Shown: piece after piece, positions 31,009 to 60,591 of the stretch | Layout: each line of letters begins with the position of its first letter | Position numbering within the stretch: the first letter of the stretch is position 1 | DNA from: Bacteroidales bacterium | GTDB lineage: Bacteria; Bacteroidota; Bacteroidia; Bacteroidales; UBA10428 | Reading direction: 5' to 3' | Length of the DNA stretch: 64,000 nt | Assembly (NCBI GenBank): GCA_016931575.1 | Contig: JAFGEO010000068.1 | Location: 1-64,000 of the forward strand | The notes under the pieces: model-generated | The model's input: the letters and a program-made list of their open reading frames with translations, nothing else | Databases searched by the model: none | Told to the model about the DNA's origin: nothing | Made by a program: the position numbers and the translations under genes

Positions 31009-32160
31009 TTAATTCATTCTTTCCATTCCCAGATTTGAATCCTTTCCCAACTGGAAGAAGGAGATCAGAGTCTGAAGTTTTTCAGCTTTCGAGCTGAGTT
31101 CTTTTGAATTTTTCGCCATATTTTGCGAGGAGGTCGCATTTTGTTGAGTGATGCTGTTAAGCTGTTGAATAGCGCTGTTTACTTGTGTAGTACCATGTGT
31201 TTGTTCCTGACTGGCGGCTGATATTTCTTTAACAAGCTGGGTGGTCTTCAGAATTTCCGGGATAAGATTCTGCATGTGTTCACCAGCGGTTTCGGCAAGG
31301 CTAAGGTTTGTATCAGCCAGATTTACAATCTCTTCAGCAGCTTTTTTGCTATGTTCAGCCAGCTTACGGACTTCAGCAGCGACCACTGCAACCCCTTTTC
31401 CATGGTCACCTGCTCTGGCTGCCTCCACAGCTGCATTTAAAGCCAGAATGTTTGTCTGGAAGGCAATATCATTAACGATCTTTATCTTCTCCCGGATAGA
31501 TCTACTGGCTTCAAGGGATGCCTGGGCTTTTTCTGCCACCCTTGTTATACCTGACTGAGCTGATGAGGATATTTGCTCAGTTTCTTGTGCATTGTTGGCA
31601 TTGGTTTCAATATTGGCAGCCATTTCTTCAATTGTGCTGGAGATTTCTTCGATGGAAGCGGCCTGCTGGTTAGCATCGCGGGAGACTTCAAGGGCAGTCT
31701 GATCCTGTCCTGTTGCTGCAGAGACAATAATGGAAGACAGGACGTGGAGTTCCTTCATGATATCCCGAATCTGAATTCTCATTTGGTCAAGGGATAAGGC
31801 AACCTGTCCCAATTCATCAGGACGTTTTGTGAGTTGGTTGTCAAATTCGAAATCTAGTCTGCCATGAGCCAGTTCGTTTACGATGACGGAAGTTAGCTGT
31901 CTGAAGGGTTTTGTTAAACGGTTTCTTAGAAAGAGTAAAACGAGTGTAATCATTAACAGGGCCATGGGTGTGATCCAAACCAGTGTCGTTAATCCTGCGT
32001 AGGCAATATAATAAGCCAGAATAGCTACCATACCGGAAATCAAGAGAATAGCCACTCCAATGATTCCGATGATGGTTTTTTTCAATCGAAAATAGACCAG
32101 GGGAATCAGGATGCTCAGTAAGATTACTATGAAGCCTGCAAAGAAGAAGAAATCACTCAT
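31009..32160 (-). CDS. Methyl-accepting chemotaxis protein
   Basis: A 383-residue protein with two or three closely spaced N-terminal membrane helices (about 5-75), a HAMP-like linker (about 75-135) and a signalling coiled coil. The conserved hairpin tip reads [19 protein letters not shown], followed by [18 protein letters not shown]. It has no sizeable periplasmic sensor domain, so it may sense membrane or cytoplasmic signals. Chemotaxis partner genes are not in the window. Confidence 0.9.
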
Positions 32161-32524
32161 AGAGTTTAGGTTTATGAATTAAACATTGAGAATGTCAAAG
32201 TAAACCATCCCTAAAGCTAAAGATGAAACCTTTCGGTTACATGCACTTTTCCTTTCCATACTAATTTACATGAAATATTAGTAACTACCTTGTTTATTAA
32301 AAAGGAATTTGATCTGTGTTTTATCGACCATAAGGTTCCAATGCATTGCAATAGGATCTTATCTGGTTAAAACGGGTCGGAAAACGACTTTGATACTCTC
32401 CGTCAAACAAAAACGGAGGCAATTTTTGGAGGGGTTATTCTCGAAAGCATCGAATCTTTCAACTCCATTTCTAATTTTTAATGCATAAATTGGGATTAAT
32501 TCTATAACACTTAAATCTAACTAA
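32161..32524. other. 364-base intergenic region without a gene
   Basis: This AT-rich stretch lies between divergent genes (chemoreceptor and DUF5060 enzyme), so it should hold both promoters. Only a weak 6-bp stem CTCCGT/ACGGAG (32398-32418) and a partial -7 match for the minus-strand gene were seen. No open frame or clear regulatory site is supported. Confidence 0.4.
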
Positions 32525-35500
32525 ATGAGAACACTAGCTCAAACATTTTCAGTTTTTTTATTCCTGTTTGCAGGTTTAAGGGCATATTGTACAGATGTTG
32601 TTCAGTATGAAAAATTTGAGGTATCACCCATCTATTCTTCAAGTAGCCTGGTTGATTCAAAAAACCCATTTAACAAACAGGAAGTAATTCTCAAAGCTGT
32701 TATTACGGCTCCGGATGGGCGCACTATCGAGGTGCATGGGTTTTATAACAAAAACTTTAGCGTTAGAGATTATCTAACTAACAAAAATCCAGAATGGCCA
32801 TATTTAAATGCTCAGAAAGTCACTGCCGTAGTTGGTTCAGCAGATTATTGGACTGTCAGATTTACACCGGAATTGGTCGGCACATATACCTATACAATTG
32901 AGTTCTACTTACCTGAGGAAGATAGTACGATATCGGTAAGCTCAAGTAGTTTTAGCTGCGTTCCTTCTTCCAACCCCAAGGCAGGGTTTGTCAGAATGGT
33001 TAATAACGATTATTTTGCCTATTCAGACGGTAGTGGTTTTATACCTATTGGCATAAACTTATACAGCTATCCGGGATGGAATGCTTATCAACCGAAAGTG
33101 AATTTCTTTGAAATGTATTTTGAGCAATTAAGTGCTCATGGATGTAATGTTATCCATATGTCTCTTGATGTGAAAATGAGCGCATTGGGTTTGGTTGGCT
33201 GGGACAGTGAATCAGGAACCTTTATCCTTGATCGGTTCAGTTTGTCTGATGCCTATGTTCTTGATAAAATAGTTGAAGCAGCTGAAGATAACGATATACG
33301 AATTCAGTTCAGACTTTTCTCTCATGAAAATTTTTCTCATAAGATTGATTGTCCTGATGCTGATCATCCAATTTACTTTGCATGGAATGAAAATAATGTA
33401 TGGAATGTAAATGCTGAGAGAGTTACTGTACCTGGTGATAAATGCATTAGAACTCCTAATGGTATTGTTAATCCAATCGGCATCATTAATACCAGAGAAG
33501 AATTTTTTACCGATGATGATGCCTTTGATCAACAGGCTAATCTTGTACAGTATATTATAGACCGCTGGGGTTATTCTCCAGCTGTTTTCGCCTGGGAGAT
33601 TCTCGCTGAGGCTGATCACTTTCTGCTAGACACTATCGGATTAAATACTTTGATAGCGTGGCATCGCGATATAGCAGATCTCATAAGGGACAAGGATGTC
33701 TATGGAAGAGCAGTTACTACTTCCTTTGGAGGGAAAGAGGCGGATCATTTTGATGAAAGTCCATATGACGATATATTTGATTATCTTGATTTTACTCAGT
33801 TTCATCGATATTTTGCACAGTTTAGTGGTGAGAGCATTATTGCTGAGAAATATTTATTTGACCATTATTTCAATGCGCATAAAGACCATTTTAGGAAACC
33901 CGTATTATTATCCGAGTCAGGGAATTTTGGGGATTGGGATAAAATTAAAGTAGAAGTCTTTTATGAAGATTATGATTCTCATGGGTATGCCTATCACGAA
34001 CTCCTTTGGACAACTATTTTTGAGGGAGGATTCGGTTCCTATCTAGACTGGAGATGGAGGGCATTTATTGACAGACGGGATCCGGCTATGGGCCCAACCG
34101 ACTATATGGAGCACCTGGGAGCTTTAAGTGACTATCTTGAAAATATTGATGTGCTCGGCAAGCAATCACAGATATCCTACCGGATTAATTCAACTGAAAC
34201 TGATAATCTGAATATTTATTACATAAATGACCCGGATGCTGAGAAACTCTATGGCTTGGCTCAAGATGAAGGATTTGTTTTAAACAGGCTTATCGATTAT
34301 AGTGATCCGGATAATCCTGTACTTGATCCATATCTAACTAATCTTGATGAGAACCTGATGCCTGATCGTCTTTCTCAAACAAATACTTTTGAACTACCAG
34401 TTTCTAACGGACAATACATCATCAGTTGGTATGATACTGAAACCGGAGACTTGGTAAAAGAAGAATATGCGACTATAAATAACGGCACAATTGAATTGAG
34501 AATTCCCTCTGAGTTACTTGGGTCAAAATTTGGTGATGCTGCATTTATACTTACAAAATCAAACTATGGCTGGGAAGAATCGAAATTGGTACCTTCCTCA
34601 ACCAACACGGTTTTACCCCATACCGAATTAAAAATCGGGAATGGTAAACTCCGTTATGTGCGAGAGCTAGATTCAAAAATTCATACAATGTATATACCTA
34701 CAGCCTCCGGAGATATTTGGAGTGATGATTGGGTTCATCCTTCTTCTGGAAGTCTTAAATACTCTAGTTCAACTTGTCATGGCTATGACATTGTCCCTGA
34801 GAATAGTGAGATATTTTTTGCGAATGCTTATGGGGGCAATATAAATCGTTTGTACTGGAACATTGATCAATATGTATTGACATTTGGTGCAAATGGAAAT
34901 GAAAAAGCCAGTTTAAATACTGAATTACATGTCAACAATAACATTGTTTATTATGCTTCAACAGATGGAACGCTGCATATGATGTACAAATTAAATGACG
35001 TTTGGCGCTATGACTATTTAAATCCAAGTGCTCCAAAACTAAAGGATGGAACTGGTTTTGTTGTTGCTGCGGCGGGAACAATTTATTATGTTGGAGCCGA
35101 CAATTATCTTTACAAAATTTATTATAATTATGCTACTTCATCGTGGTTATGGGAGCCTACTGTAACAGCAACAAACTCAGCAGCTCGTTCCGATTCACGG
35201 ATGGGTTATGCAAACGGAAAGGTTTATTATGTTCAAAATTCAGACAGGCTTCATGTACTGTATAAAAATAATGGGGTTTGGGATTTTGATTGGTTAAATA
35301 GAAATGCTCCTAATGTTTTAAGTGGAACCGGATTTGATGTGACTTATGATGGAAGTACAAGGATTTACTATGTTGGCGATGATAATAATATCTACAAATC
35401 TTATTGGACGTCAGAGGATCGATGGGTATGGCAACAATTTAATATTGCAAATTCCAGCTCAGGTGGGGCTAAATCAAATTCAGATGTAGTTTATATGGAT

Positions 35501-36202
35501 GATCAGATATTTTATGTGGGTAAGAATGACGGTAGTATTCACCGTTTGCAGTGTGTACATTCCGTTCCATTTTATGATGTAAATACAACAATTGGTAAAG
35601 GGAACAACTGGGGTGTAAATGGCACTGATGGTCGTGATGTGGCATACAAATTCTACATATCAGAAACTACTGCAATAACTGCCACTACTTCACATCCTGA
35701 AACTACAATAGCAAACTCAAAACTGCAAATTTTCAATAGTAGCTTCAATAGTGTTAAATATCAATATATTGGAGCTCCTACTTCGGGAGTAAGTCTTAAC
35801 GCAACTCTTAGCCCGGGTTATTACTATATCGTTGTGGATGGATACGCTGCCGGAGATTTTAAATTAACAGTTAATCCAGGTTTTGCAAAAAGTGCTGATA
35901 TTATTGAAGATGAAAGTATTTCTATTGAAAATGAAGGAAAGAACAGTTCATACTTATGCAGTGAAGAGATACGTATATTCCCAAATCCGGTTCAGGAAAG
36001 TCTGACCGTTGAGTTAGTCGGGAATGAGAATTCCGAATTTGATTTCGAACTGTATGACCTTAAAGGACAGCTGCTGTTAAATAGAAAATCAGAGGGAAAT
36101 TCTCTGAATATTAATTGTTCAGCATTACCTAAGGGGGTATATGTTTCCAAAATAAAGACCCAATCTGCAACTTATTACAGGAAGATAGTGCTGCAGAATT
36201 AA
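32525..36202 (+). CDS. T9SS-secreted DUF5060 / GH5-like glycosidase with propeller-like and PPC-like domains
   Basis: The 1225-residue protein has a signal peptide (to about 20), a DUF5060 beta-sandwich (about 25-120), and a TIM barrel of GH5-like type (about 150-520) with a putative acid/base E362 in WEILAE and nucleophile E464 in LLSESGN. In related barrels the acid/base usually follows Asn (NE); here it follows Ala. A region of three to four repeats (about 700-1015; IYYVGADNYLYK, IYYVGDDNNIYK) suggests a propeller or tectonin-like lectin. A PPC-like domain (about 1020-1120) and a type IX sorting domain (from about 1145, IFPNP) follow. It is AT-richer than its neighbours, suggesting acquisition. 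The substrate is unknown. Confidence 0.82.
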   Translation: MRTLAQTFSVFLFLFAGLRAYCTDVVQYEKFEVSPIYSSSSLVDSKNPFNKQEVILKAVITAPDGRTIEVHGFYNKNFSVRDYLTNKNPEWPYLNAQKVTAVVGSADYWTVRFTPELVGTYTYTIEFYLPEEDSTISVSSSSFSCVPSSNPKAGFVRMVNNDYFAYSDGSGFIPIGINLYSYPGWNAYQPKVNFFEMYFEQLSAHGCNVIHMSLDVKMSALGLVGWDSESGTFILDRFSLSDAYVLDKIVEAAEDNDIRIQFRLFSHENFSHKIDCPDADHPIYFAWNENNVWNVNAERVTVPGDKCIRTPNGIVNPIGIINTREEFFTDDDAFDQQANLVQYIIDRWGYSPAVFAWEILAEADHFLLDTIGLNTLIAWHRDIADLIRDKDVYGRAVTTSFGGKEADHFDESPYDDIFDYLDFTQFHRYFAQFSGESIIAEKYLFDHYFNAHKDHFRKPVLLSESGNFGDWDKIKVEVFYEDYDSHGYAYHELLWTTIFEGGFGSYLDWRWRAFIDRRDPAMGPTDYMEHLGALSDYLENIDVLGKQSQISYRINSTETDNLNIYYINDPDAEKLYGLAQDEGFVLNRLIDYSDPDNPVLDPYLTNLDENLMPDRLSQTNTFELPVSNGQYIISWYDTETGDLVKEEYATINNGTIELRIPSELLGSKFGDAAFILTKSNYGWEESKLVPSSTNTVLPHTELKIGNGKLRYVRELDSKIHTMYIPTASGDIWSDDWVHPSSGSLKYSSSTCHGYDIVPENSEIFFANAYGGNINRLYWNIDQYVLTFGANGNEKASLNTELHVNNNIVYYASTDGTLHMMYKLNDVWRYDYLNPSAPKLKDGTGFVVAAAGTIYYVGADNYLYKIYYNYATSSWLWEPTVTATNSAARSDSRMGYANGKVYYVQNSDRLHVLYKNNGVWDFDWLNRNAPNVLSGTGFDVTYDGSTRIYYVGDDNNIYKSYWTSEDRWVWQQFNIANSSSGGAKSNSDVVYMDDQIFYVGKNDGSIHRLQCVHSVPFYDVNTTIGKGNNWGVNGTDGRDVAYKFYISETTAITATTSHPETTIANSKLQIFNSSFNSVKYQYIGAPTSGVSLNATLSPGYYYIVVDGYAAGDFKLTVNPGFAKSADIIEDESISIENEGKNSSYLCSEEIRIFPNPVQESLTVELVGNENSEFDFELYDLKGQLLLNRKSEGNSLNINCSALPKGVYVSKIKTQSATYYRKIVLQN

Positions 36203-36216
36203 TTTTTGTACCTTTG

Positions 36217-36246
36217 AAAACTCACCTTTAGGTGAGTTTTCAATTT
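36217..36246 (+). terminator. Rho-independent terminator of the DUF5060 enzyme gene
   Basis: AAAACTCACC (36217-36226) and GGTGAGTTTT (36231-36240) form a perfect 10-bp stem with loop TTTA, 14 bases after the stop codon, followed by T-rich sequence. Its right arm contains a GTG that could be misread as the start of the next gene. Confidence 0.85.
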
Positions 36247-36261
36247 TATAACAAACCTCTG

Positions 36262-37110
36262 ATGATTAAAAGTCTGTACAAATTTTTATCCTCCGGGTAT
36301 CAAAATCTGTTTCTTGAGTATAAGGTTCAGTTTAAGCCAAGGTATGGCCATGGTTTACCCCCGCATAAGGAGATATATTCCATTGTTAATGCTGAGCGGG
36401 ATAGCTACGAACAATTATTGAAAAGGGCGTTATCCTTAAAAGAAAGGATCTGGGAAATAAAAGAGAGTAAAGACGAAAAAGATTCCTCAAAACCTGCGTG
36501 GAATAATGGGTTTTTACCAGGCCTGGATATTGTTGCTATATACACCATGCTCTCGGAATTTAAGCCTAAAAAGTACATTGAGATTGGTTCTGGCAACTCC
36601 ACTAAAGTGGCATATAAAGCAAAATCTGATCAAAACCTGCGGACTGAAATTATTTCCATAGACCCCATGCCCCGTGCCGAGATCGACAATTTGGCTGATA
36701 AGGTAATAAGAGAGCCTTTTGAGAATATCCACTTTAATATTTTAAATGAGTTAAATGAAAACGATATTCTCTTTGTGGACAACTCGCACAGGATATTGCC
36801 AAACTCGGATTCAATGGTATTCTATCTGGAGATTCTGCCGAGATTAAAGAAAGGTGTTATCGTACATATCCATGACATTTATTTACCCTATGATTATCCG
36901 CAATTCATGTGTGACAGATTTTATTCTGAACAATACGGATTAGCCATGTATTTACTGGCAAATCCGGATAAATTCAAGCCAATTCTGTCGAATTACTTCA
37001 TTTCCGAAGACAAGGACTTGTCCTATTTAATATCACCTATGTGGAGCCATGAACATTTGACAGGTGTAGAAAGGCATGGAGGATCCTTCTGGTTAAAAAT
37101 AAACAAGTAG
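36262..37110 (+). CDS. SAM-dependent class I methyltransferase
   Basis: A 282-residue protein with a Rossmann methyltransferase core: motif I EIGSGNSTKVAYKA, followed by ISIDP at the end of strand 2 and ILFVDNSH. The stretch VHIHDIYLPYDYP fits the Methyltransf_24-type group, which often modifies sugars or polysaccharide residues. The frame can be opened at a GTG at 36232, but that codon lies in the terminator hairpin, so the ATG at 36262 is chosen. The gene shares the AT-rich composition of the upstream enzyme gene. The substrate is unknown. Confidence 0.7.
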   Translation: MIKSLYKFLSSGYQNLFLEYKVQFKPRYGHGLPPHKEIYSIVNAERDSYEQLLKRALSLKERIWEIKESKDEKDSSKPAWNNGFLPGLDIVAIYTMLSEFKPKKYIEIGSGNSTKVAYKAKSDQNLRTEIISIDPMPRAEIDNLADKVIREPFENIHFNILNELNENDILFVDNSHRILPNSDSMVFYLEILPRLKKGVIVHIHDIYLPYDYPQFMCDRFYSEQYGLAMYLLANPDKFKPILSNYFISEDKDLSYLISPMWSHEHLTGVERHGGSFWLKINK

Positions 37111-37254
37111 AAATATCGGAATACGCTGTTGAGTGCGTCATTTTTTTGGCTGTTCATGATGATTTACATATACCTCTAACAGTTTCTCGTTATGCCTGAA
37201 GCAGGAAAAAGTTTATTAGGCTGGATTTTTCCATTAATTGAAAAATTGCATAAA

Positions 37255-37702
37255 TCAGACTTCAATTCCGAAAAAATACCTCAGCAGAAGTCCAACTCCA
37301 AAGCTTAAAAGCGCAACACCCATACTCAGCAATGCCATCTCGCCAAAGCGACGAATAAACCGTTCACTTCTGACAACCGAGTAGAAGTAATTAAAGGCCG
37401 CAATGATCAGGATAGCCCCTGAAAGGGTCAATCCCAGCGAGAGGTAAATATTTTCCAGGAGCAGGTAGGGAAGTATGAGGAAAAGAACAGTAAAGCTGCA
37501 AGCGATTGGGTTTCACATCCTGCTGTGTTAATACCTTATACACCTGGTAGTGTTGTTTTTCTTCACCGGCAATACGGCGCAGAATACTCTGGTTGTGAGT
37601 GTCTTTCTCCCGGTTTGCCAAATTGTTATAGATATGATTTCCGGTAATTTCCTGTACCTGAAACTGCAGAAGGAGCTTAATTTGGTCGTCAGTTAATTTC
37701 AT
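37255..37702 (-). pseudogene. Decayed VIT1/CCC1-family ferritin-like membrane transporter
   Basis: The first 66 or so residues, starting MKLTDDQIKLLLQFQ and including EKDTHNQSILRRIAGEEKQH, match the ferritin-like N-terminal domain of VIT1/CCC1-type iron/manganese transporters, up to DVKPNR. After that the continuous frame is unlike the family and stops at 37391. In the adjacent frame from about 37500 the typical C-terminus is readable: SFTVLFLILPYLLLENIYL, then GVALLSFGVGLLLRYFFGIE and a stop at 37255. The central membrane region, roughly half of a typical 290-residue protein, is missing and the ends are out of frame. This is an internal deletion with frameshift. Confidence 0.75.
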
Positions 37703-37794
37703 TATTGTATTTTTGGGACAAAACGGATGATTCAGGGATTAAAAGTAAGAAATCATTCTGAGTGCTGTATCAAGCTTTATAACATAGGAGGGCA

Positions 37795-38568
37795 ATGATT
37801 GAACTTTTACAATTCAGGCAGTTCGAGAGTCTGAGAGGGATTGGGCATTTTATTACAACCCGTTACGGAGGGCGGAGCGAGGGAACATTTGAATCGCTTA
37901 ACCTGAGTATGAAGGCAGGCGATGATGTCAACAGGGTAGCTGAGAACCGGATATTGCTGGCTGAGGAGATCGGGCTAAATCCCCGTCAGATGCACTTCCC
38001 GGATCAGTGTCATACCAACCATATAAAAATCATTGAAAGCCGCTTTGACATTCCTGACCTGAAGGAGACCGATGGAGTGATTACCCATCAGAAGGGCATA
38101 TGCCTGTGTGTGCTGGCAGCGGATTGTGTACCGATCCTCCTATACGATTCGGTAAAGCAGGTGGTGGCAGCAGTTCATTCGGGATGGAGGGGAACCGCAG
38201 GATCGATTATTATTAAGGCCATTGAACAGATGACCGGGGAATATGGTTCCAAACCTGAGAGGATCATGGCGGGAATTGGTCCGGCAATTTCCGCACCAAA
38301 CTATGAAGTAGGCGGTGAAGTAGTCCAAAAATTAGAGTCGCTTTTCGGTAAGAATGAGCAGGTAATCAGCTTCAATGGGAGAGCAGGTAAAGCCCATGTT
38401 GACCTGAAGGAGGCCAACCGTCTCTTGCTGCTTGAGGCGGGATTGAAACCCGGGCGGATCGAAGTGATGGATGATTGCACCTTTTCAAAACCTGAGTATT
38501 TCTTTTCTGCCCGCAGGGATGGTTACCATACGGGAAGGTTTGCTGCAGGTATTTTCCTGAAGGAATAG
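37795..38568 (+). CDS. pgeF: PgeF/YfiH-family polyphenol oxidase (peptidoglycan editing factor)
   Basis: A 257-residue cytoplasmic protein of the YfiH/DUF152 family. The metal-site motifs are seen: LAADCVPILLYD and HSGWRGT with H128, and an early His-containing segment near FPDQCHTNH. Family members in E. coli edit peptidoglycan precursors by removing mistakenly inserted L-Ser, and others act as purine nucleosidases or laccase-like enzymes. The gene is followed after 38 bases by a GNAT gene on the same strand. Confidence 0.9.
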   Translation: MIELLQFRQFESLRGIGHFITTRYGGRSEGTFESLNLSMKAGDDVNRVAENRILLAEEIGLNPRQMHFPDQCHTNHIKIIESRFDIPDLKETDGVITHQKGICLCVLAADCVPILLYDSVKQVVAAVHSGWRGTAGSIIIKAIEQMTGEYGSKPERIMAGIGPAISAPNYEVGGEVVQKLESLFGKNEQVISFNGRAGKAHVDLKEANRLLLLEAGLKPGRIEVMDDCTFSKPEYFFSARRDGYHTGRFAAGIFLKE

Positions 38569-51167: not shown

Positions 51168-52268
51168 ATGAAAGCGATAGAACAGTATTGTTACCGGCTG
51201 CCATGGACAGCGGATGATAACCCGAATGGATGGATTGAACCGACTACCTTTTGTCAGTTAAAGTGCCCGGGGTGCTACAGGGGAGTGGATAAGGAAGGGC
51301 ACAAATCCGAACATTTTCTACTCGAAGAACTTAAAAAACAGGTGGATGCACACATCCGCGAGCGTAATATTCAAACCCTTTCAATTGCGGGGGGAGAACC
51401 CCTGCTGTATCCTGAATTACCGGAATTGATCAGCTACGCTACCGAAAAAGGGCTCCGCACCATGATTTACACCAACGGAATAGGTTTGGATGAGCAATTG
51501 CTTGGCAAACTGAAGCAGGCAGGGGCTACCCAGATCCTCGTACATGTGGACCGGTTTCAGGGGCGAAAAGGGGTCAATTCCATTACTGATGTGATCCGGG
51601 AACACCGAAAATATTGTGAACTTTTCCGAAAGACCGGCGGGGTGAACCTGGGATTCATACAACCTGTCACTAAGGCATGCCTGGCTGAACTTCCCCTGCT
51701 TACCGGTTTCTTTTCTCAAAACCGGGATATTATCAGCCTTGTTGTATTTACACTTTACAGGGAGATATGCTGGGACCATAAAAAGAAACCAACGATCGAT
51801 ACTTCAATTACGATTGACGAACTGATTTCACACCTGACGGGACACAAGGTTTTTCGGGCAGCATCCTACCTGCCCTCGACCCATACTCCGGGGGAGCCTG
51901 CCTGGGTATTCTCCTATGCGATCGGGACAGGGAACAGGATCCTCGGATTCCTGGACAAACGGGTGTACAGAAGTATCCAGAAAAATTACTACCGCTACAA
52001 GGCCAGACACTTATTTATCTCAAAAAATTACCAGGTAAAGCCTGGCGGCTTACACAAATATTTCTATTTCCCTTCTATATTCCGTATCTTAGTAAAAAGA
52101 CTTTCTCATCCTGCAAAGGATCTCTTCTTCCAGACATACCTTGTTATCCGGGGCCCGCTAAAGAAAGGTGATCACTGGGATTTATGTGACGGCTGCCCGG
52201 ATGCCATGTATTACAAGGGGAAACTTGAACCCTCCTGTCTTCTGGAAGAGATCCAAAGGAGGAATTGA
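51168..52268 (+). CDS. Radical SAM enzyme with C-terminal cysteine motif
   Basis: A 366-residue cytoplasmic protein with the radical SAM cluster motif CQLKCPGC (C29, C33, C36), the SAM-binding GGEP segment (AGGEPLLYPE) and a C-terminal set of cysteines (CDGCPDAMYY...C; C340, C343, C357) that could hold an auxiliary iron-sulfur cluster. It belongs to the broad SPASM-like/HpnH-like radical SAM group, but I cannot assign a subfamily. It opens the seven-gene operon; the next gene begins 31 bases later. Its role in the pathway (C-C bond formation, methylation or hydroxyl removal) is inference. Confidence 0.82.
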   Translation: MKAIEQYCYRLPWTADDNPNGWIEPTTFCQLKCPGCYRGVDKEGHKSEHFLLEELKKQVDAHIRERNIQTLSIAGGEPLLYPELPELISYATEKGLRTMIYTNGIGLDEQLLGKLKQAGATQILVHVDRFQGRKGVNSITDVIREHRKYCELFRKTGGVNLGFIQPVTKACLAELPLLTGFFSQNRDIISLVVFTLYREICWDHKKKPTIDTSITIDELISHLTGHKVFRAASYLPSTHTPGEPAWVFSYAIGTGNRILGFLDKRVYRSIQKNYYRYKARHLFISKNYQVKPGGLHKYFYFPSIFRILVKRLSHPAKDLFFQTYLVIRGPLKKGDHWDLCDGCPDAMYYKGKLEPSCLLEEIQRRN

Positions 52269-52299
52269 ATACAGGACATACTAACCAAAATACATCGCC

Positions 52300-53163
52300 A
52301 TGCAAAAAATCAGTTTCTTTTTCGTGCTTATCTTCCTTGCCTCCGGTCTCCAGGCATCCTTTGATGACCATCCGGGAAAGGACACCGAAAGATCCTTTAA
52401 AACCGGACAGGAGGAACCTCGCTACCTGTCGCAATTTAAGCTCATTGACTACGATCTCCCCTACGATTATTCAACACTGATTCCTGATATTGATAAAAAC
52501 AAAAAGAAAGTGCTGGACCTGCTGAACCAGGCAGCGCTCTCAGCTAAACAATTTGACTGGTTTACCAGGATCGAAGATGAACGTGTGGTCCTCATCCTGA
52601 CAGATCTGGGTAATGCACGATTCACGCTGGAGGTTGACAAGCAAAAAGTCTCGGTTGCCGAAGGAGCCGATGAGGCCATGGAGCCTACCATGGTTGTTCC
52701 CCTGATGACCAGTAATGTTGCGGATCTTGCAGCTTACCTTGAGGATGGAATGCTGAGCTACGAGGAGAAATATAAAATCTTTTATGCCATTACCATACCT
52801 GGATTGCAGGCGATCTATCACAATGAGCTGCTTTTTGGATCCGGCGATAAGTCGGAATTCAAATTTGATAATCTGATGCAGCTTGTTATCCCCAGGGAAG
52901 AAGAATTCGTAATATACGGCATTCCCAGAACTATAGAGGCAACGGTGGTCAATGTCGACGGGCAATGGATGGTATTCAGCGGATTGCAGGGCGACCCTGA
53001 CTTCCGCATCAGCTGTACACCGGATCAGGCAGTCAGGCTTTACAAACTTGCTTTCTACGACGTCCGGAAGATTAAGTCGAAGAAGCAGGCCGAGGAGGTC
53101 TCAAAGGAGTTTCTGAAATTTATGGATTCCATCGTCGTTTACACCCGGGAAGACCATCAGTAG
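52300..53163 (+). CDS. Secreted protein with possible SCP2-like lipid-binding segment
   Basis: A 287-residue protein with a signal peptide (to about residue 19, LQAS). No catalytic motif is seen. The middle (about 88-160) runs VLILTDLGNARFTLEVDKQK, then EPTMVVPLMTSNVADLAAYLEDG, which resembles the strand-helix pattern of SCP2 sterol-transfer domains. This resemblance is weak and needs a structure search. It lies between the radical SAM gene and the BtaA-like gene, with gaps of 31 and 23 bases, so it belongs to the operon. It may carry a lipid in the periplasm. Confidence 0.6.
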   Translation: MQKISFFFVLIFLASGLQASFDDHPGKDTERSFKTGQEEPRYLSQFKLIDYDLPYDYSTLIPDIDKNKKKVLDLLNQAALSAKQFDWFTRIEDERVVLILTDLGNARFTLEVDKQKVSVAEGADEAMEPTMVVPLMTSNVADLAAYLEDGMLSYEEKYKIFYAITIPGLQAIYHNELLFGSGDKSEFKFDNLMQLVIPREEEFVIYGIPRTIEATVVNVDGQWMVFSGLQGDPDFRISCTPDQAVRLYKLAFYDVRKIKSKKQAEEVSKEFLKFMDSIVVYTREDHQ

Positions 53164-53186
53164 ATTGTATCTGTTCTCACAAAAAA

Positions 53187-54275
53187 ATGGAAAATTCTCA
53201 GCATCCGAACATACGTTACAGCCAGTCCTGGGAAGATGCTGAGTTACTTCTTAAAGCGCTGGAAGTCACCCGCGCAGACCATGTGTTATCCATTACCTCA
53301 GGTGGATGTAACACACTTTCATTATTGGCACAGGAGCCTGAAGAACTTGTTGCTGTCGATATCAACCCGGCGCAGAATTACCTGTTTGAATTAAAACTAG
53401 CCGCAGCAAGGATACTATCCGCTGAAGCAGTGCCCGGTTTTCTGGGAGCAGTTCCCTGTCAGACCAGGTTGGCATATCTAGAACAGCTGAAAGATGAAAT
53501 TTCACCTGAAGCACGGAAATACTGGTTGGCTGAAAAGGTATTGCTGGAAAAGGGAGTGATACATTGTGGCCGGTTTGAGAAATACCTGCAGGTGTTCCGG
53601 AGATACCTTCTGCCCCTAATACATTCACGAAAGACAGTCCGGGAGTTGCTGCGTATTAAATCCCCTGATAAGCAAAAATACTTCTACGACCGGGTATGGG
53701 ATTCAAAACGATGGAGAGGGATGTTTCACGTGTTTTTCAGTAAGGCAGTGATGAAGAAAATAGGCAGAAGCCCTGCAATGTTCCGTTACGCAGAGAACGG
53801 AAATATCAGTCGGCATTACCTTCAAAAAACAGCTGTTGCTCTAAGTCGGACGCCAGTGTTTCAAAATCCTTACCTCAACTATATTTTATTGGGAAGCTAT
53901 GGTCAGGATAAGCCTCATTACCTTAGAGATGAAGTACTCTCAGCAATTCGGGGATCGGCAACCAGACTGAAAATTGAGACGCAGGACCTTATTCTATTTT
54001 TAAAAGCCCAAGCTGATGATTCCTTCTCGAAATTCAACCTGTCCGATGTGTTTGAACCCTTGTCGGATGTTCAATCCGGAATGGCATTTCAGGAAATTGT
54101 CAGAACCGGTAAAACAGGGGCACGGGTGATCTTCTGGAATAACCTGGTAATCAGGGATGTTCCGGCTGAGCTGAGGACGAATTTCAGGGAAGAAACCCAA
54201 CTAAGGGAGCAACTTCTCGGTGAGGAGAAAATCTTCTTTTATAATGATTTGAAAATATATACATTGCTCAAATGA
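53187..54275 (+). CDS. BtaA-like (DUF3419) 3-amino-3-carboxypropyl transferase
   Basis: A 362-residue protein with the start of DUF3419 proteins: RYSQSWEDAELLLKAL, then the SAM-binding loop LSITSGGCNTLSLL (about 34-47) and VAVDINPAQN with D58. BtaA uses SAM as donor of a 3-amino-3-carboxypropyl group to diacylglycerol, giving the betaine-lipid precursor homoserine lipid. No BtaB-type N-methyltransferase is adjacent, so a different acceptor or product is possible. Its last codons overlap the UbiA gene by 4 bases (ATGA). Confidence 0.82.
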   Translation: MENSQHPNIRYSQSWEDAELLLKALEVTRADHVLSITSGGCNTLSLLAQEPEELVAVDINPAQNYLFELKLAAARILSAEAVPGFLGAVPCQTRLAYLEQLKDEISPEARKYWLAEKVLLEKGVIHCGRFEKYLQVFRRYLLPLIHSRKTVRELLRIKSPDKQKYFYDRVWDSKRWRGMFHVFFSKAVMKKIGRSPAMFRYAENGNISRHYLQKTAVALSRTPVFQNPYLNYILLGSYGQDKPHYLRDEVLSAIRGSATRLKIETQDLILFLKAQADDSFSKFNLSDVFEPLSDVQSGMAFQEIVRTGKTGARVIFWNNLVIRDVPAELRTNFREETQLREQLLGEEKIFFYNDLKIYTLLK

Positions 54276-55150
54276 CGCTGCTAAAACGTTTTTATCAATA
54301 TCAGGAGGAAAGGTTTCCTATAAAGATCCTGGTGTTTACCACAATGGCTGTGGTATTGAGTTCTGCTGCCATCCTGGGCTTCACGGTAAATATCTGGCAG
54401 TTACTGGCCAGCTTTTTTGCCTGCATTTTCTTTCTATACCACATTCGGGTGATAGATGAATCCAGGGATGAGCAGCACGACACAAAGTACCATGCCGACA
54501 GACCTGTTCAGCGAGGTCTGATCCGGATCCGGGAGCTGTTCCTGATCGATATCTTCGCTCTGATACTTTTTAGTGCGATCATGTTAAGCTTCGGAGGGGT
54601 TTCGCTTACCTATGGCCTTGCCCTGCTCCTTTTTAGTTTCATAGCTTGGAAGGACTTTTTCCTGGGCGAAAGGTTGAAGCAACGTTTTCTCCTTTATAAT
54701 TCAGTGAATATGTTCCAGATGGTCCTCCTGCAACTCTTCATCTATGCAGTGCTGACACAAGATTTCTATGTGGATGCAGTAATGTGGATCCACTTGTTGT
54801 TTGTGATTTTCAATACCCTTATCCTGGAATTTGTCAGGAAAATTAAGACCTCGGATGATGAGTCGATAGGGAAAGACACCTACTCCTGGCATCTTGGCTA
54901 CGCCAGGTCAATCTATTACTTTTATGGATTTACCTTTTTAAACCTGCTTACCTTCATATGGATGATGTATACCCTGGCCCCTGATGTCCTGCCTTATGTG
55001 CTGATTGCTTTGGGAATCCAGGCGGTACTGACCTTCGCCACGGTCTGGCACCTTTTCCTGAAAAAGAAAACCAGTGAGCAGTTTTTACTGCTTGCCACGG
55101 TCGTGAACTATGTGGGATTGAACCTGCTGATTTACATTTATAATGCCTGA
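54272..55150 (+). CDS. UbiA-superfamily prenyltransferase
   Basis: A 292-residue membrane protein with about eight hydrophobic segments. It has the first Asp-rich motif D62xxxD66xxxD70 (VIDESRDEQHD) followed by RPVQRGLI, and a second polar motif in the equivalent later loop (RKIKTSDDESIGKDTYS, about 189-205). These motifs bind Mg2+ and the prenyl diphosphate. UbiA enzymes transfer isoprenyl chains to aromatic or glycerol-type acceptors in the inner membrane. It overlaps both neighbours (4 and 8 bases). The acceptor is unknown. Confidence 0.85.
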   Translation: MTLLKRFYQYQEERFPIKILVFTTMAVVLSSAAILGFTVNIWQLLASFFACIFFLYHIRVIDESRDEQHDTKYHADRPVQRGLIRIRELFLIDIFALILFSAIMLSFGGVSLTYGLALLLFSFIAWKDFFLGERLKQRFLLYNSVNMFQMVLLQLFIYAVLTQDFYVDAVMWIHLLFVIFNTLILEFVRKIKTSDDESIGKDTYSWHLGYARSIYYFYGFTFLNLLTFIWMMYTLAPDVLPYVLIALGIQAVLTFATVWHLFLKKKTSEQFLLLATVVNYVGLNLLIYIYNA

Positions 55151-57443
55151 CGGAATGGCTGTTCAAGGGAATAAAGGAAAGAATCTGGAACGCATGAAGA
55201 ATGCTGGCTTTCGTGTCCCTCCTTTTATTCTGATCGATCGGGATACCACCGAGGCAGAACTTCTAAAAAGGATTCAGGAAGAACTGCCGGGGCAGCGTCT
55301 TTTTGCGGTTCGCTCATCATGCGCCGGGGAGGACGAGATAAACCGGTCATCAGCGGGGAAGTATTATTCTCAGATCGGTGTCCGTAAGGAAGCCCTCTCG
55401 GAGGAGATTCAAAAGGTCCTTGCATCCTACCAGGGGGCAGCCGGGGATGTTATCGTCCAGCAGTTTATCCCTTCTGCAAAATCCGGGGTGCTCTTCACCA
55501 ATGACGGGAATGGTAACATCCTGGTCAATGCCAACAGGGGTTTGTGTAAACAGGTTGTGGAGGGGCATCCCTGCGATGAATATTGCCTCGACCGGGCAGG
55601 GAAAATCATGTCCCGGCAGATACCTTTTGCCAAGGAATACCTGGTTTTTTCAAAAGGAAGAATGATCCGGCGACAAACAGCCAAAGCCAGTTTATCCCCT
55701 GGCGAACTTCGCCGGCTTTGTCGAATGTCAGAAAAACTTGAGAAGGTTTTTGGTAGTCCCCAGGATGCCGAATGGTGTTTTTTCAGATCCAGGCTCTATC
55801 TTCTGCAGGCACGCCCAATAACGCGTCCTCTTCCAAAGGCTTCAGAACGTGTACACTATGATAGTGCGAACATAGCTGAAAGCTACTCCGGCATTGTGCT
55901 CCCGCTTACCCTTTCATTCGCAAAACACATTTACGGGAGGGTATACATGAACCTGCTTCATGCTTCGGGGGTACGAATGAAAAAACTTTTAAGGCACCGG
56001 GAGATCTTTGACAACATGGTAGCCTGGCACTACGGGAGGCTTTATTACAACATGAACAGCTGGTACAGAATGATGGCCTTTATTCCCGGATATCAGCGCA
56101 ATAAGGTAAACCTGGAGAATATGATCACCAGCAACATCCGGGTAGATGTGGAGCGGGATATCCTGCCGCCTTTCTGGTTTAACATCGGTTATCCCTTGCT
56201 GGTGATGTTGAAACTTGCATATTTTAATTTCAGTCAGCATAGCTTCCGCAGGCTGGTACTGGGGTATATTTCAGATTTCCGTCAGAAGGATCCTGAGACG
56301 CTTGACCTGAATGATTGTGAGGCCCTTTTCACAGAATTTGATACCCGGCTGATCAGTCGCTGGCATGTTCCTGTCGAGAATGATTTTATGGTGATGACAT
56401 TCTTCGGGCTCCTCCGGAAAAGTCTGACAAGCGAAGAGGAGCTGCATCTGGCATTAAGGTTTAAAAGTAAAACCAGCGAGCAGATAGAAAAGATCAGGGA
56501 ACTCTGTTTATTCATGACCACGATACCCGGAGTGAGAGACTCGCTTTCCTCCGGAGACAGGGAGAAATTTTCCCGGATCCTTACCTCCGATCCATTGATC
56601 AGCCAAAAGCTGGAAGAATATTTTCTCGAATACGGAGGCAGGTATGCCAACGAACTGAAACTGGAATCAAAAGATATTGAGGAAGACCATTCAGGATTAT
56701 TTGAACTGCTGCGATTATACTTTCACAATCCGGCAGAAAAGGAAAGCAGGGTAAAGGAGGAAGAGCCCTTAAAACTGTCTGTCTTTCAACGCTTTTTAAT
56801 TAACCGATTCAGGAAATATGCCAGCGCCCGTGAAGAAATGCGGCTGCTCCGTTCGAATGGTTTTTCCATGATGCGGAAACTGATGAACAGGGTGGGATTG
56901 CTGTTGGCTGAGGCGGGACGGATCGAATTGGCCGATGATGTCTATTACCTTCGGCTGGAAGAACTCTTCACGGAACGTACAGATTATAAAGATCTTATTC
57001 AGAAGCGGAAGGGGCAGTATGATGAATTTCGGCAGATCACTCCGCCCATACACTTTTCACTTGCTGAAGGGGAGGAACCTCCGGCAGGGGGAAAGGTTGA
57101 GAAAGCCGGCGCCACTATACAGGGAAAGGCATGCAGTAAGGGCAAAATTACAGGTCGGGTAAGGGTATTCAATGAATTTTCATTTCCCGGGACCATTGAT
57201 TTTGAGATTGTGGTTGCCAGGCATACCGATCCGGGATGGACACCCCTTCTGGGGATTGCCAAAGGGCTGATTGTTGAGCATGGAGGGATCCTGTCACATG
57301 CAGCCATCGTATCAAGAGAGCTGAATCTGCCAACAGTAATTGGAATTCCGAATATCACGAAGCAACTAAAAACAGGTATGCTCGTTGAACTGGATGGGAA
57401 TTCAGGATGTATAAAAATTTTGAATGAAGATCATAAGAGGTAA
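55143..57443 (+). CDS. PEP-synthase-like phosphotransferase without PEP/pyruvate barrel
   Basis: The 766-residue protein has an N-terminal ATP-grasp domain of PEP synthase/PPDK type (about 5-225: VQGNKGKNLERMKNAGF, AVRSSCAGED, LLQARPITRP). The middle (about 230-640) is unlike PEP synthase, rich in Trp, Tyr and His, and probably binds another substrate. The C-terminus has the phosphohistidine domain with H719 in GGILSHAAIVSREL. This plan matches rifampin phosphotransferase-type enzymes, where the swivelling His carries phosphate from ATP to a small molecule. It overlaps UbiA by 8 bases and the GNAT gene by 20, so it is coupled to the pathway. The phosphorylated substrate could be an isoprenoid or lipid alcohol; this is inference. 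Confidence 0.85.
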   Translation: MPDGMAVQGNKGKNLERMKNAGFRVPPFILIDRDTTEAELLKRIQEELPGQRLFAVRSSCAGEDEINRSSAGKYYSQIGVRKEALSEEIQKVLASYQGAAGDVIVQQFIPSAKSGVLFTNDGNGNILVNANRGLCKQVVEGHPCDEYCLDRAGKIMSRQIPFAKEYLVFSKGRMIRRQTAKASLSPGELRRLCRMSEKLEKVFGSPQDAEWCFFRSRLYLLQARPITRPLPKASERVHYDSANIAESYSGIVLPLTLSFAKHIYGRVYMNLLHASGVRMKKLLRHREIFDNMVAWHYGRLYYNMNSWYRMMAFIPGYQRNKVNLENMITSNIRVDVERDILPPFWFNIGYPLLVMLKLAYFNFSQHSFRRLVLGYISDFRQKDPETLDLNDCEALFTEFDTRLISRWHVPVENDFMVMTFFGLLRKSLTSEEELHLALRFKSKTSEQIEKIRELCLFMTTIPGVRDSLSSGDREKFSRILTSDPLISQKLEEYFLEYGGRYANELKLESKDIEEDHSGLFELLRLYFHNPAEKESRVKEEEPLKLSVFQRFLINRFRKYASAREEMRLLRSNGFSMMRKLMNRVGLLLAEAGRIELADDVYYLRLEELFTERTDYKDLIQKRKGQYDEFRQITPPIHFSLAEGEEPPAGGKVEKAGATIQGKACSKGKITGRVRVFNEFSFPGTIDFEIVVARHTDPGWTPLLGIAKGLIVEHGGILSHAAIVSRELNLPTVIGIPNITKQLKTGMLVELDGNSGCIKILNEDHKR

Positions 57444-58431
57444 CTATAAGCACTTGAATGAGGCAAAGTCCTACTTTGCCTTGCTGAAAGAACTCTATGG
57501 GAGTAGCAATGGCTATGACTATTATTCAGGGGATCTGAGAAATGCCCTGCAACATTGCCTGACCCATCCTGAACAGGAACATCAGTATATTGCCATCCAG
57601 GAAGAACAAACCCTGATGGCCCATGCAATCCTGATCAGAGATGACCGGCTTCCTGAGGGAGAGATATTCTTTGGATTTTTTGAATGTCGCAGCGAGGGGA
57701 CCTTCTTTGAGAGTCTGTGGAGCGAAATGATGGCAGTGGCCGCTTCAATGGGTGCCAGGCTTATGAGAGGGCCTGTCAATGGTTCCATATGGCATGCCTA
57801 TCGCGTGGTAAGCTACAGTGACCCGGGATTCCCGGTATTCAATTCGGAACCTGTTACTCAGCAGTGGTATTACCGGGCACTGAAGGAGAAGTCCCCGGTG
57901 GAGGAGAGCACCTACTATTCCGGGTCCAGAAAAAATTACGGCTTCATCATCCTGCATACCGCAGCCTCCTATCAGATGGCCTTAGCCGAGGGGCTGGAAA
58001 TCGTCATCCCCGAAAAAATCAATACCGGAATTATGGGGCAGATCTATAGTCTTTCCCGTGCAACTTTTCTGTCGAGTTGGGCTTATACAGAACTTAGCCT
58101 GGAGGAGTTTATCCGGCTTTACTCTGATGACAAAATCGACAAACATATCGGGAAGGTCTGTCTCCTGATGAAGGGAGATAGGCTGGTTGGATTCTGCACA
58201 ACCGTGAAGGACCATGGCAGAATGATCATCAAAACCATTGCAGTACATTCCGAATACCGGGAAAAAGGGTACGGGAATGCCCTGGTGCATAAAGTACATG
58301 CTGATGCTGAAAAGGAGGGGGTCAGCGAAATCATCTATGCCCTGATACGATCGGGGAATAAGGTTTCTAATTTCCCACAGGATCAGGCAACGATCTTCCG
58401 GGAATATGCGGGTTTCAGTTTTAGAATTTAG
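57424..58431 (+). CDS. GNAT-family acyltransferase, tandem-type
   Basis: A 335-residue protein. The C-terminal half has the GNAT acetyl-CoA signature HSEYREKGYGNALVHKV. The N-terminal half looks like a second, degenerate acyltransferase domain (GPVNGSIWHAYRVV). The start overlaps the preceding gene by 20 bases, so the two are translated together. In this operon it might acylate an amino group, for example that introduced by the BtaA-like enzyme. The substrate is unproven. Confidence 0.78.
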   Translation: MKIIRGNYKHLNEAKSYFALLKELYGSSNGYDYYSGDLRNALQHCLTHPEQEHQYIAIQEEQTLMAHAILIRDDRLPEGEIFFGFFECRSEGTFFESLWSEMMAVAASMGARLMRGPVNGSIWHAYRVVSYSDPGFPVFNSEPVTQQWYYRALKEKSPVEESTYYSGSRKNYGFIILHTAASYQMALAEGLEIVIPEKINTGIMGQIYSLSRATFLSSWAYTELSLEEFIRLYSDDKIDKHIGKVCLLMKGDRLVGFCTTVKDHGRMIIKTIAVHSEYREKGYGNALVHKVHADAEKEGVSEIIYALIRSGNKVSNFPQDQATIFREYAGFSFRI

Positions 58432-58437
58432 CAGCCT

Positions 58438-59067
58438 ATGATGTTTACATTGATTTTTGCCCTTCTGTTTTCAGGCATGTTTTTCTTGCTGGATATTCTA
58501 CAGAAGAAGGTTTTTACAGGCAGAGCCTGGTCCAGGAAGGCTACCCATGTGCTCTCCGGGCTGCTGGTCATTCCGATGCCCGAATACCTGGGTCGCGGTC
58601 AGATCATCTTTCTTGCTGGTTGCTTTTTACTCCTGCTCCTGGTTTCCCGGTGGAAGCAGATACTGAGTATCCATGAGGTGGATCGTTTTACCATCGGAGA
58701 GATTCTCTATCCGATCAGCATCGGGATCCTCGCTCTGATGTGCCTTCCCGAAGATCCTGCAGCTTTTAGAGTCAGCACACTCCTGCTGGCATTTTCCGAT
58801 GGATTTGCCGGGATCTTTGGAGAGCTGCTCAACTTTAAACCGATCAAACTGGGGAAGAATACCAAGAGTATTGGAGGTTCACTGACCTTTCTGTTGACAT
58901 CCCTGGGCATCCTGCTGATCTTCCATGGATTCTCAGTAGATACCATAGTACTCTATAGTGCTGTTGCCATTGGGCTCACACTCCTTGAATTTTTTATGAT
59001 CTATGGTTTTGACAACCTGACAGTACCAGTAGCTTCAGCGCTTGTTGAACTCTATTTACTTGGTTGA
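58438..59067 (+). CDS. Dolichol/phytol-kinase-like membrane CTP enzyme
   Basis: The 209-residue protein has six or seven hydrophobic segments. The family motifs are SRKATHVLSGLLVI near residue 32, LAFSDGFAGIFGE near 120 and TKSIGGSLTFLLTS near 140, as in the dolichol kinase, phytol kinase (VTE5) and CDP-diglyceride-synthase-like group. These use CTP to phosphorylate a polyprenol or isoprenoid alcohol in the membrane. It starts 6 bases after the GNAT stop and ends the tight operon. It could make the isoprenyl monophosphate for the UbiA enzyme. Confidence 0.78.
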   Translation: MMFTLIFALLFSGMFFLLDILQKKVFTGRAWSRKATHVLSGLLVIPMPEYLGRGQIIFLAGCFLLLLLVSRWKQILSIHEVDRFTIGEILYPISIGILALMCLPEDPAAFRVSTLLLAFSDGFAGIFGELLNFKPIKLGKNTKSIGGSLTFLLTSLGILLIFHGFSVDTIVLYSAVAIGLTLLEFFMIYGFDNLTVPVASALVELYLLG

Positions 59068-59110
59068 AAACGCAATTTTCTTCAACTTAGCCACTCAAAC
59101 CTGCATCCCT

Positions 59111-60064
59111 ATGAACCGAATTGATCGACTCACAGCAATCCTGATACAGCTGCAGACCAAGAGGTGGGTGACTTCCGGAGAAATTGCCGATCGCTATGAT
59201 ATCAGTATACGTACCGTTTACCGCGACCTCCGTGCCCTTGAAGAGGCAGGGGTTCCCATTGGTGCCGAAGCGGGGAAGGGCTATTTCATTGTAGATGGTT
59301 ACCATCTTCCTCCCGTAATGTTCACCCGGGAAGAGGCTGGTGCCATGGTGCTTGCCGGCAAGCTGATCGAGAAGTTGACAGATCAGTCTTTGCAGCATGC
59401 CTATTCACTTGCTATCGATAAAATTAAATCGGTACTGCCAGAGGAGGATAAAGAATCCCTGGTGGGACTCAATGAGCAGATCAAAGTGTTTTATGCACGT
59501 CAGACCCCTGAAAATAATTATCCGGATAATTTCCTTTCCCTGACACAGAAAGCCCTCAGCGATTCAAAATGTTTGCAGATCGACTATCACGCCAGCTACA
59601 GCCAGGAAAAGACCAAAGGTCGCATTGTGGATCCACTCGGACTCGTTTTCTATGCGAATACCTGGCACCTGATTGCCTTCTGTAAACTACGGCAGGAAAT
59701 GCGCGATTTCAGGCTTGACAGGGTTATGGATATGAAGATTATGAGTGAATGTGCGAGCCCCAAACACCCTGATGAGCTCAAACGATACTTCGAGGATCTA
59801 TGGCAGACCGTTGATCTTTCTGAAGCAAAGGTCTGGTTTCACAGGGATGTAATTCCCGTTGTGAATGCTTCCCGGTATTATTTCGGATACATTGATGAAG
59901 AGCTCGAAGCGGATGGAGTGATTATGAGTTTTGCTGTGACCGATCATCACCATATCGGGAGCTGGTTGCTTTCCTTTGCCGGACAGTGTAAGGTTGTCTC
60001 ACCTCCGGAACTTCAAGAAGAAATTCTCTCCTCGGTCAGGGAACTGGCAAAAGTTTACCTGTAA
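59111..60064 (+). CDS. WYL-domain transcriptional regulator
   Basis: The 317-residue protein has an N-terminal winged helix (HTH_11, DRLTAILIQLQ, IRTVYRDLRALEEAGV) and a WYL domain at about 155-230 with the variant NTWHLIAFC in place of WYL. Such regulators bind a ligand or nucleic acid through the WYL domain. A reading from 59042 begins at TTG inside the end of the previous gene; the ATG at 59111 gives a normal length. It is 43 bases after the operon and may regulate it, but no operator was seen. Confidence 0.85.
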   Translation: MNRIDRLTAILIQLQTKRWVTSGEIADRYDISIRTVYRDLRALEEAGVPIGAEAGKGYFIVDGYHLPPVMFTREEAGAMVLAGKLIEKLTDQSLQHAYSLAIDKIKSVLPEEDKESLVGLNEQIKVFYARQTPENNYPDNFLSLTQKALSDSKCLQIDYHASYSQEKTKGRIVDPLGLVFYANTWHLIAFCKLRQEMRDFRLDRVMDMKIMSECASPKHPDELKRYFEDLWQTVDLSEAKVWFHRDVIPVVNASRYYFGYIDEELEADGVIMSFAVTDHHHIGSWLLSFAGQCKVVSPPELQEEILSSVRELAKVYL

Positions 60065-60141
60065 TTTTTTTCATACTGACATAGGGCTGTCACATGCCTG
60101 CTGTAGGTTTGTTTTCATGTTTAACGAAAAAATCTTTTATC

Positions 60142-60591
60142 ATGGAAATTAAAAACCTTCCAAACACCTATGCCTACTACAGGAAAATTGAAACCAATAT
60201 GCAAGAACTGGCGAAGTTTGTGGGCAGTGTACCGTCACAACTCCTTGAAGATGCCTCTCGTAAGGGGTATAAAATCGCAGGTCCCCAGTTTTGGAATTAC
60301 ACAGGTATGGATAATAATCCAGACACCATATTTCAGCTCGAAATTGCCATTCCGATTGTGGTTGCTGAGGATAAGGTAGCAGAACATGTGGCTTCTATTC
60401 CTGGTTTTCAGTGTGCTTCCCTGATGGTTAAAGGTCCGTGGTCAAATCTTGCAGAATCTTATGAGCAGCTTATTGCTGAAATGGCGCAACAGGGCATGCA
60501 ACCCGGTCTTCAATGCCGGGAAGTATATCATGAGGTTGACTTTACAAATCCTGAAAACAATGTAACAGAGATTCTCATGAGCATTAATTAA
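60142..60591 (+). CDS. GyrI-like effector-binding-domain protein
   Basis: A 149-residue protein with the small-molecule-binding fold of GyrI/SRPBCC-type AraC effector domains (FQLEIAIPI, VKGPWSNLAESYEQLIAEM). The ATG at 60142 is preferred over an upstream start at 60094 because the fold begins after it. It has no DNA-binding part of its own. It lies just after the WYL regulator and may act in ligand buffering. Confidence 0.7.
   Translation: MEIKNLPNTYAYYRKIETNMQELAKFVGSVPSQLLEDASRKGYKIAGPQFWNYTGMDNNPDTIFQLEIAIPIVVAEDKVAEHVASIPGFQCASLMVKGPWSNLAESYEQLIAEMAQQGMQPGLQCREVYHEVDFTNPENNVTEILMSIN

Follow-up and report, generated by a model that had tools for sequence, protein, structure and literature searches.

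What could be built by seven tightly packed genes in a Bacteroidales genome that encode a DUF3419 protein, a UbiA-superfamily membrane transferase and a phosphoenolpyruvate (PEP)-synthase-like enzyme side by side? The genes, lettered A-G in order, lie on a 64,000-nucleotide stretch of DNA (positions 1 to 64,000 of contig JAFGEO010000068.1, assembly GCA_016931575.1; hereafter the window) that is part of a 4.8 Mb draft genome, and genes C-D-E-F-G (DUF3419, UbiA, PEP-synthase-like, GNAT and CTP-kinase-like, respectively) constitute the core. An initial annotation knew of no characterized pathway with this combination, and a literature search with subscription papers and preprints outside its coverage likewise found no description of it. 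Here we propose, with moderate confidence, that this genus carries in the operon its own form of a bacterial polar-lipid pathway, widespread but sporadic in occurrence, in which the UbiA enzyme would ether-link an activated long-chain alcohol. If true, ether lipids would gain an additional kind of enzyme logic, the orphan DUF3419, UbiA and PEP-synthase-like proteins would gain a shared function open to testing, and related lipid genes would be placed in two phyla.

A five-gene core recurs across genomes and phyla

The initial annotation had named a lack of co-conservation in related genomes as an outcome that would refute its operon; the opposite was observed. About 1,400 genomes were scanned in all, and twenty loci that contain gene E, the window included, were read (the G305 locus was left out). 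UbiA adjoins gene E in 18 of the 20 loci (some UbiA genes, masked by overlapping open reading frames (ORFs), were recovered by tblastn), whereas DUF3419, GNAT and gene G are found in 16, 18 and 14 of them, respectively, the GNAT of one Patescibacterial locus (L037) being counted from our own reading of the ORF. Loci with no clear UbiA-E pair or that are incomplete include L033, where E stands alone, and L049, which ends at a contig edge. The nearest operon carrier is a second species of the same genus (G001, locus L008), which maintains the A-C-D-E-F order of the window with G convergent and B missing; its proteins share 51 (A), 44 (C), 35 (D), 44 (E), 37 (F) and 27% (G) identity with those of the window, and its operon resides at a different site, next to genes read as thyA/folA-like and fusA-like. 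When GTDB contigs were scanned for DUF3419, two Parcubacteria (L009 and L010) were found to keep the C-D-E-F-G order, the core being preceded by a short reductase-like short-chain dehydrogenase/reductase (SDR). As the gene set reappears at further sites and beyond its own phylum, chance adjacency, or an artefact of gene neighbourhood, was rejected; the five-gene core C-G recurs in G001 and in two of the tiny, parasitic Parcubacteria, the UbiA-E pair recurs in further Bacteroidota and Patescibacteria, and the reality of a recurring lipid operon is well supported.

Carriage of the cluster is patchy: DUF3419 is present in 3 of 99 close relatives, and gene E in 11 of the 395 Bacteroidota searched as well as in a small number of Patescibacteria. 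A search of a viral collection found no relatives. In trees, which are small, the window's E and D proteins cluster with those of G001 and the two Parcubacteria (support values of 100/100 and 100/99, respectively), and window E shares 46-47% identity with the Parcubacterial copy as compared to 27-29% with those of other Bacteroidota. The simplest reading of these sequence relationships would be transfer between Bacteroidales and Parcubacteria, in either direction, or acquisition from a common third source.

Relatives' operons point to fatty alcohols and glycerolipids

The operons were sorted into four types. Type I (L027, L028, L030, L032, L047, L048, L051 and L052) reads FcrA-UbiA-E-DUF3419-G, with GNAT and an AMP-binding ligase nearby. 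Type II (L029 and L050) reads FAR-DAGK-UbiA-E-GNAT-PS decarboxylase-DUF3419, where DAGK is a diacylglycerol kinase and PS is phosphatidylserine; L031 is a mix that has G. Type III, from Patescibacteria (L036 and L037), combines a CarS-like gene, a CDP-alcohol phosphotransferase, UbiA and E with no DUF3419, to which L036 adds PS decarboxylase, GNAT and a ligase and L037 adds G and a gene B homologue. Type IV comprises the window, G001 and the two Parcubacteria, where the SDR replaces the radical SAM gene. The type III operon at L036:3146-13458 (CarS-like, second PEP-synthase-like, CDP-alcohol phosphotransferase, PS decarboxylase, UbiA, E, GNAT and acyl ligase genes) is a nearly self-contained phospholipid operon in a genome of ~1.1 Mb that lacks ketoacyl synthase.

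The eight type I operons encode homologues of HMG-CoA reductase (two were scanned, with E=1.5e-115 and 8e-115) that retain E559, K691, D767 and H866, and all eight carry the substitutions S684->E, K735->T/A/V/M and L862->F. FcrA, an HMG-CoA-reductase-related fatty-acyl-CoA reductase characterized in 2025 (Grossi et al., PMC11948995), has this signature: the HMGR tetrad is kept, Ser684 is replaced by Glu, the active-site Lys by a small residue, and Leu862 by a bulky one. The S684 and K735 changes were derived independently, before the signature was known from that paper, whose Lys795 is taken here as Lys735. A true HMG-CoA reductase, and with it the mevalonate pathway, was rejected by the three substrate-pocket residues. 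An AMP-binding acyl ligase accompanies FcrA in 8 of 8 operons. Three other operons contain a FAR-type reductase that is unrelated to FcrA; no operon has both, and the genomes of the three FAR carriers contain no PF00368 gene anywhere. Because two unrelated reductases occupy one slot, the relatives' operons point to a fatty alcohol as their shared intermediate. They also encode glycerolipid head enzymes (DAGK, PS decarboxylase, CarS-like and CDP-alcohol phosphotransferase), and a setting of fatty alcohols and glycerolipids is strongly supported. For the isoprenoid chain assumed in the initial annotation we found no positive evidence.

Predicted activities of the core proteins

Most of the family labels first given to the genes held: radical SAM, DUF3419, UbiA, PEP-synthase-like and GNAT were recovered by Pfam, whereas the 'lipid-binding-like' label of B and the kinase-like label of G found no library match. 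Gene D exceeds the PF01040 cut-off (47.8 versus 34.2 bits), and a 12-member profile built on it matches best, among solved structures, archaeal digeranylgeranylglyceryl phosphate (DGGGP) synthase (6m31, 3.5e-9), followed by chlorophyll synthase (1.5e-3); its first motif, DExxDxxxD, aligns with NDxxDxxxD of DGGGP synthase. Gene E consists of an ATP-binding domain, a middle domain and a phosphohistidine domain (His719). Its best solved matches are rifampin phosphotransferase-type chains (5hv2/5fbs), and it aligns to 5hv2 across both domains with the catalytic His region kept. No PEP/pyruvate-binding domain was detected, as Pfam finds PPDK_N and PEP-utilizers alone and the protein stops after the mobile domain; given this and the lipid context, an ordinary PEP synthase or a rifampin resistance enzyme was rejected. 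A Patescibacterial copy of gene E (L037:5859-7559) has no ATP-binding domain and keeps the middle and phosphohistidine domains. Gene G has no match in Pfam, NCBIfam, PHROGs or the PDB, and the motifs K..GGS and GxDN..P are kept in 8 homologues. In the kinase slot, G (14 of 20 loci) and DAGK (two loci without G, L029 and L050) never occur together, and possible stand-ins are a second E-like gene in L036 and a 379-residue gene, read as APH-like, in L046.

Gene C is the sole DUF3419 copy in the window genome and is predicted from its family to be an S-adenosylmethionine (SAM)-dependent 3-amino-3-carboxypropyl transferase; DUF3419 found no match among solved structures. A structural model of gene F combined with a fold search reveals two GNAT domains (predicted local distance difference test score, pLDDT, of 68), and speaks to the tandem GNAT architecture, not to the acyl donor or acceptor. 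DUF3419 and GNAT are also paired outside the cluster. In Aminicenantes (L012:8283-13610) a DAGK-type lipid kinase, a DUF3419 fused to an apparent ICMT-like membrane domain, a tandem GNAT and a gene resembling pyridoxal-phosphate decarboxylases follow in order, which suggests aminocarboxypropyl transfer and then decarboxylation. In Cryomorphaceae (L011:31-10577) the pair lies beside genes read as P450, fatty-acid desaturase, an aminotransferase fusion and two radical SAM enzymes of the B12 type, and the locus resembles an unusual biosynthetic cluster. On a Balneola-like contig (L013:1984-3744), a DUF3419 protein 26% identical to gene C is immediately followed by a BtaB-like methyltransferase; the two probably form a classical pair for betaine lipids, one that could serve gene C as an outgroup.

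A proposed route and its alternatives

In the pathway that we propose, a fatty acyl-CoA would, in most relatives, be reduced to a long-chain alcohol by an FcrA- or FAR-type reductase, and the CTP-kinase-like G, the phosphohistidine enzyme E, or both would phosphorylate the alcohol. Enzyme D, of the UbiA family, would link this activated chain to an acceptor of the glycerol type. An ether is the most likely bond, since its nearest solved relative, DGGGP synthase, forms ethers. The tandem GNAT F would attach an acyl group, and DUF3419 would transfer a homoserine-type head, 3-amino-3-carboxypropyl, from SAM; the head may be decarboxylated in some of the relatives, or a CDP-alcohol phospholipid route may take its place. 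The analysis establishes the gene content, its co-conservation, the families to which C, D and E belong and the relatives' FcrA signature. What G, E, D and F each catalyse, the ether linkage, the order of steps and the product are inferred, and it is D together with the fatty-alcohol enzymes that leads us to reason that the product class is an ether lipid. The sequence from alcohol through phosphorylation and UbiA transfer to a DUF3419-derived head, outlined in the initial annotation, fits the relatives' operons; its second phosphorylation by the phosphohistidine enzyme and its acylation of the new amine by the GNAT are conjectural.

Several observations weigh against an ether-linked alkyl chain. 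UbiA enzymes normally take allylic donors (prenyl diphosphates), and we know of no precedent for ether formation by a UbiA enzyme from a saturated alkyl diphosphate. The second motif of gene D is diverged, and Patescibacterial L046 contains at most a short, diverged UbiA candidate. The label of gene G as a predicted CTP-dependent lipid-alcohol kinase comes from its motifs, which we take to resemble those of the dolichol/phytol kinase family. No gene for an alcohol-forming enzyme was found in the window itself; because a PF00368 protein, and so FcrA, is lacking from both the window genome and G001, and the window genome shows just weak NAD_binding_4 (FAR-like SDR) matches, the alcohol here must come from scavenging or from a different enzyme, or else be of another kind.

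The same absence of a fatty-alcohol-forming gene from the window makes an allylic alcohol possible in this genus, and G and E could then convert a scavenged phytol- or farnesol-type alcohol to its diphosphate, with D prenylating an acceptor and C and F decorating the product. Although the usual UbiA substrates and the motifs of G would suit such salvage, we consider it unlikely, as the fatty-acyl-CoA ligases and reductases of the relatives would be pointless with prenyl alcohols and no isoprenoid genes were recognized in the operons. Yeast Dgk1 is a CTP-dependent diacylglycerol kinase, and were G to act likewise, the operon might exchange phospholipid for homoserine lipid, and the reverse, on ordinary diacylglycerol, with D doing something other than building the backbone. 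The DAGK-family kinases that replace G in type II operons and lie upstream of DUF3419-GNAT in Aminicenantes accord with this remodelling, as do the relatives' PS decarboxylase, CarS-like and CDP-alcohol phosphotransferase genes; it appears improbable nonetheless, because the near-universal pairing of UbiA with the PEP-synthase-like enzyme and the FcrA/FAR enzymes would be left unexplained. Finally, addition of an aminocarboxypropyl group to a prenylated or alkylated small molecule by DUF3419, with later N-acylation by the GNAT to give a secondary metabolite, would suit the patchy spread and the Cryomorphaceae locus, but is quite improbable given the phospholipid head-group enzymes inside the operons, and secondary metabolism is unlikely in carriers from the candidate phyla radiation (CPR) because their genomes are ~1 Mb and lack ketoacyl synthase.

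The proposed pathway bears on CPR membranes, whose lipid supply is an open question. No complete known lipid pathway was found in a survey of 675 CPR genomes, and small-cell fractions from Crystal Geyser are rich in lysolipids, every one of which has a betaine head group (PMC7242380). Ketoacyl synthase is absent from the five Patescibacterial carriers and present in the six Bacteroidota tested; a compact lipid operon is thus found here in CPR genomes without this enzyme. One of these, Parcubacterial L010, bears a sample name in the style of those given to Crystal Geyser material. More tentatively, there may exist a further bacterial ether-lipid route in which a fatty alcohol is phosphorylated by a CTP kinase together with a phosphohistidine enzyme, UbiA etherifies it and a homoserine or phospholipid head follows; possibly it is distinct from the GGGPS/DGGGPS, ElbD and AGPS routes and common to Bacteroidota and to Parcubacteria without fatty-acid synthesis, building membrane lipids from scavenged chains.

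Layout of the operon and its optional genes

The ORF listing of the window confirms seven packed genes on one strand, which fill positions 51168-59067 (Table 1). The A/B, B/C, C/D, D/E, E/F and F/G junctions measure +31, +23, -4, -8, -20 and +6 bases; the three overlaps and one 6-base gap bear out the four tight junctions that had been described.

Table 1. Genes of the operon in the window.
Gene	Product or family	Coordinates	Strand	Evidence	Role
A	Radical SAM enzyme	51168..52268	+	Pfam Radical_SAM 6.1e-19	Accessory
B	Signal-like N-terminus, no known family	52300..53163	+		Optional part
C	DUF3419 (BtaA-like)	53187..54275	+	PF11899 1.8e-64	Predicted head-group step
D	UbiA-superfamily membrane transferase	54272..55150	+	PF01040 1.5e-12	Core enzyme
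E	PEP-synthase/rifampin-phosphotransferase-like	55143..57443	+	PPDK_N (PF01326) 4e-27, PEP-utilizers (PF00391) 5e-22	
F	Tandem GNAT acyltransferase	57424..58431	+	Pfam Acetyltransf_1 1.2e-11, C-terminal half	
G	Small membrane protein, predicted CTP-dependent lipid-alcohol kinase	58438..59067	+	Motifs	

What remains of the proposed seven-gene unit is the C-G core. Gene A, which has a CxxxCxxC motif and a Cys cluster at its C-terminus, opens the G001 operon as well; it is not part of the core and, within the operon, is restricted to the form found in this genus. Relatives ~30% identical to it occur in 20 of the 198 Bacteroidota genomes searched (the window's among the 20), and no lipid operon or recurring lipid neighbour was seen within their short flanks. 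They are single genes (L059-L077), two of them near a cyclopropane-fatty-acid-synthase-like or methyltransferase gene. Gene B has no match in Pfam, PHROGs or NCBIfam and is absent from the G001 and Parcubacterial operons; the sole locus where it recurs is Patescibacterial L037, in which a homologue (30% identity over 210 residues, 4e-29) adjoins UbiA. Its single-sequence model (pLDDT 40) was not used.

The operon is bordered 5' by LarE on the opposite strand (library match) and 3' by a WYL regulator (Pfam), with a plausible ATG start ~45 bases beyond gene G. This WYL-domain protein, directly behind gene G and followed by a small GyrI-like protein (59042-60591), is a possible regulator of the operon. 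Promoter and terminator scans yielded no more sites than shuffled sequences. Elsewhere in the window, positions 32001-38000 have a G+C content of 0.37-0.40 as compared to ~0.46 around them, are possibly acquired DNA, and encode a 1225-residue secreted-looking protein with a sorting-type tail at its end.

Comparison with known systems

The operon shares with the BtaA/BtaB system for betaine lipids (diacylglyceryltrimethylhomoserine, DGTS) a DUF3419 protein and its predicted transfer of an aminocarboxypropyl group from SAM to a lipid hydroxyl, and differs from it by five or more extra enzymes. The BtaB-like protein of L013, used as a query, had no match in the 293 ORFs of the loci; a betaine lipid proper was rejected on this ground, and the head would therefore remain homoserine or be decarboxylated. 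The archaeal ether-lipid pathway (GGGP synthase, DGGGP synthase and CarS), which has a counterpart in bacteria of the Fibrobacteres-Chlorobi-Bacteroidetes (FCB) group (PMC7852524), has in DGGGP synthase the enzyme nearest to the operon's UbiA, and a CarS-like gene is likewise found in two Patescibacterial operons; it lacks the kinases and the PEP-synthase-like enzyme, whereas the chain source in the relatives is mostly a fatty alcohol. PcrB/GGGP synthase was found in none of the operons read and scored above cut-off in 7 of 18 carrier genomes and 0 of 5 Patescibacteria, and that of the window genome lies on a different contig from the operon. An archaeal-type isoprenoid ether lipid is not supported, as PcrB is outside the operons and missing from many carriers.

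With the rifampin phosphotransferase, PEP synthase and PigC/RedH family, gene E has in common the ATP-binding and phosphohistidine domains and the catalytic His region, and it differs by its lack of a PEP/pyruvate-binding domain, its own middle domain and its lipid context. The known context of FcrA, whose three diagnostic substitutions are shared by eight relatives' operons, the window being without it, is wax esters, and ether lipids were suggested only via PlsC-like or AGPS genes (PMC11948995); what is new here is that it is linked with UbiA, DUF3419 and a PEP-synthase-like enzyme. Neither an ElbD nor an AGPS gene was recognized in the operons examined. Both ElbD (which contains FarA) and AGPS belong to bacterial ether-lipid genes that use a fatty alcohol as the source of the ether chain (PMC11948995), and the source proposed here is alike, whereas the enzyme that would form the ether is UbiA.

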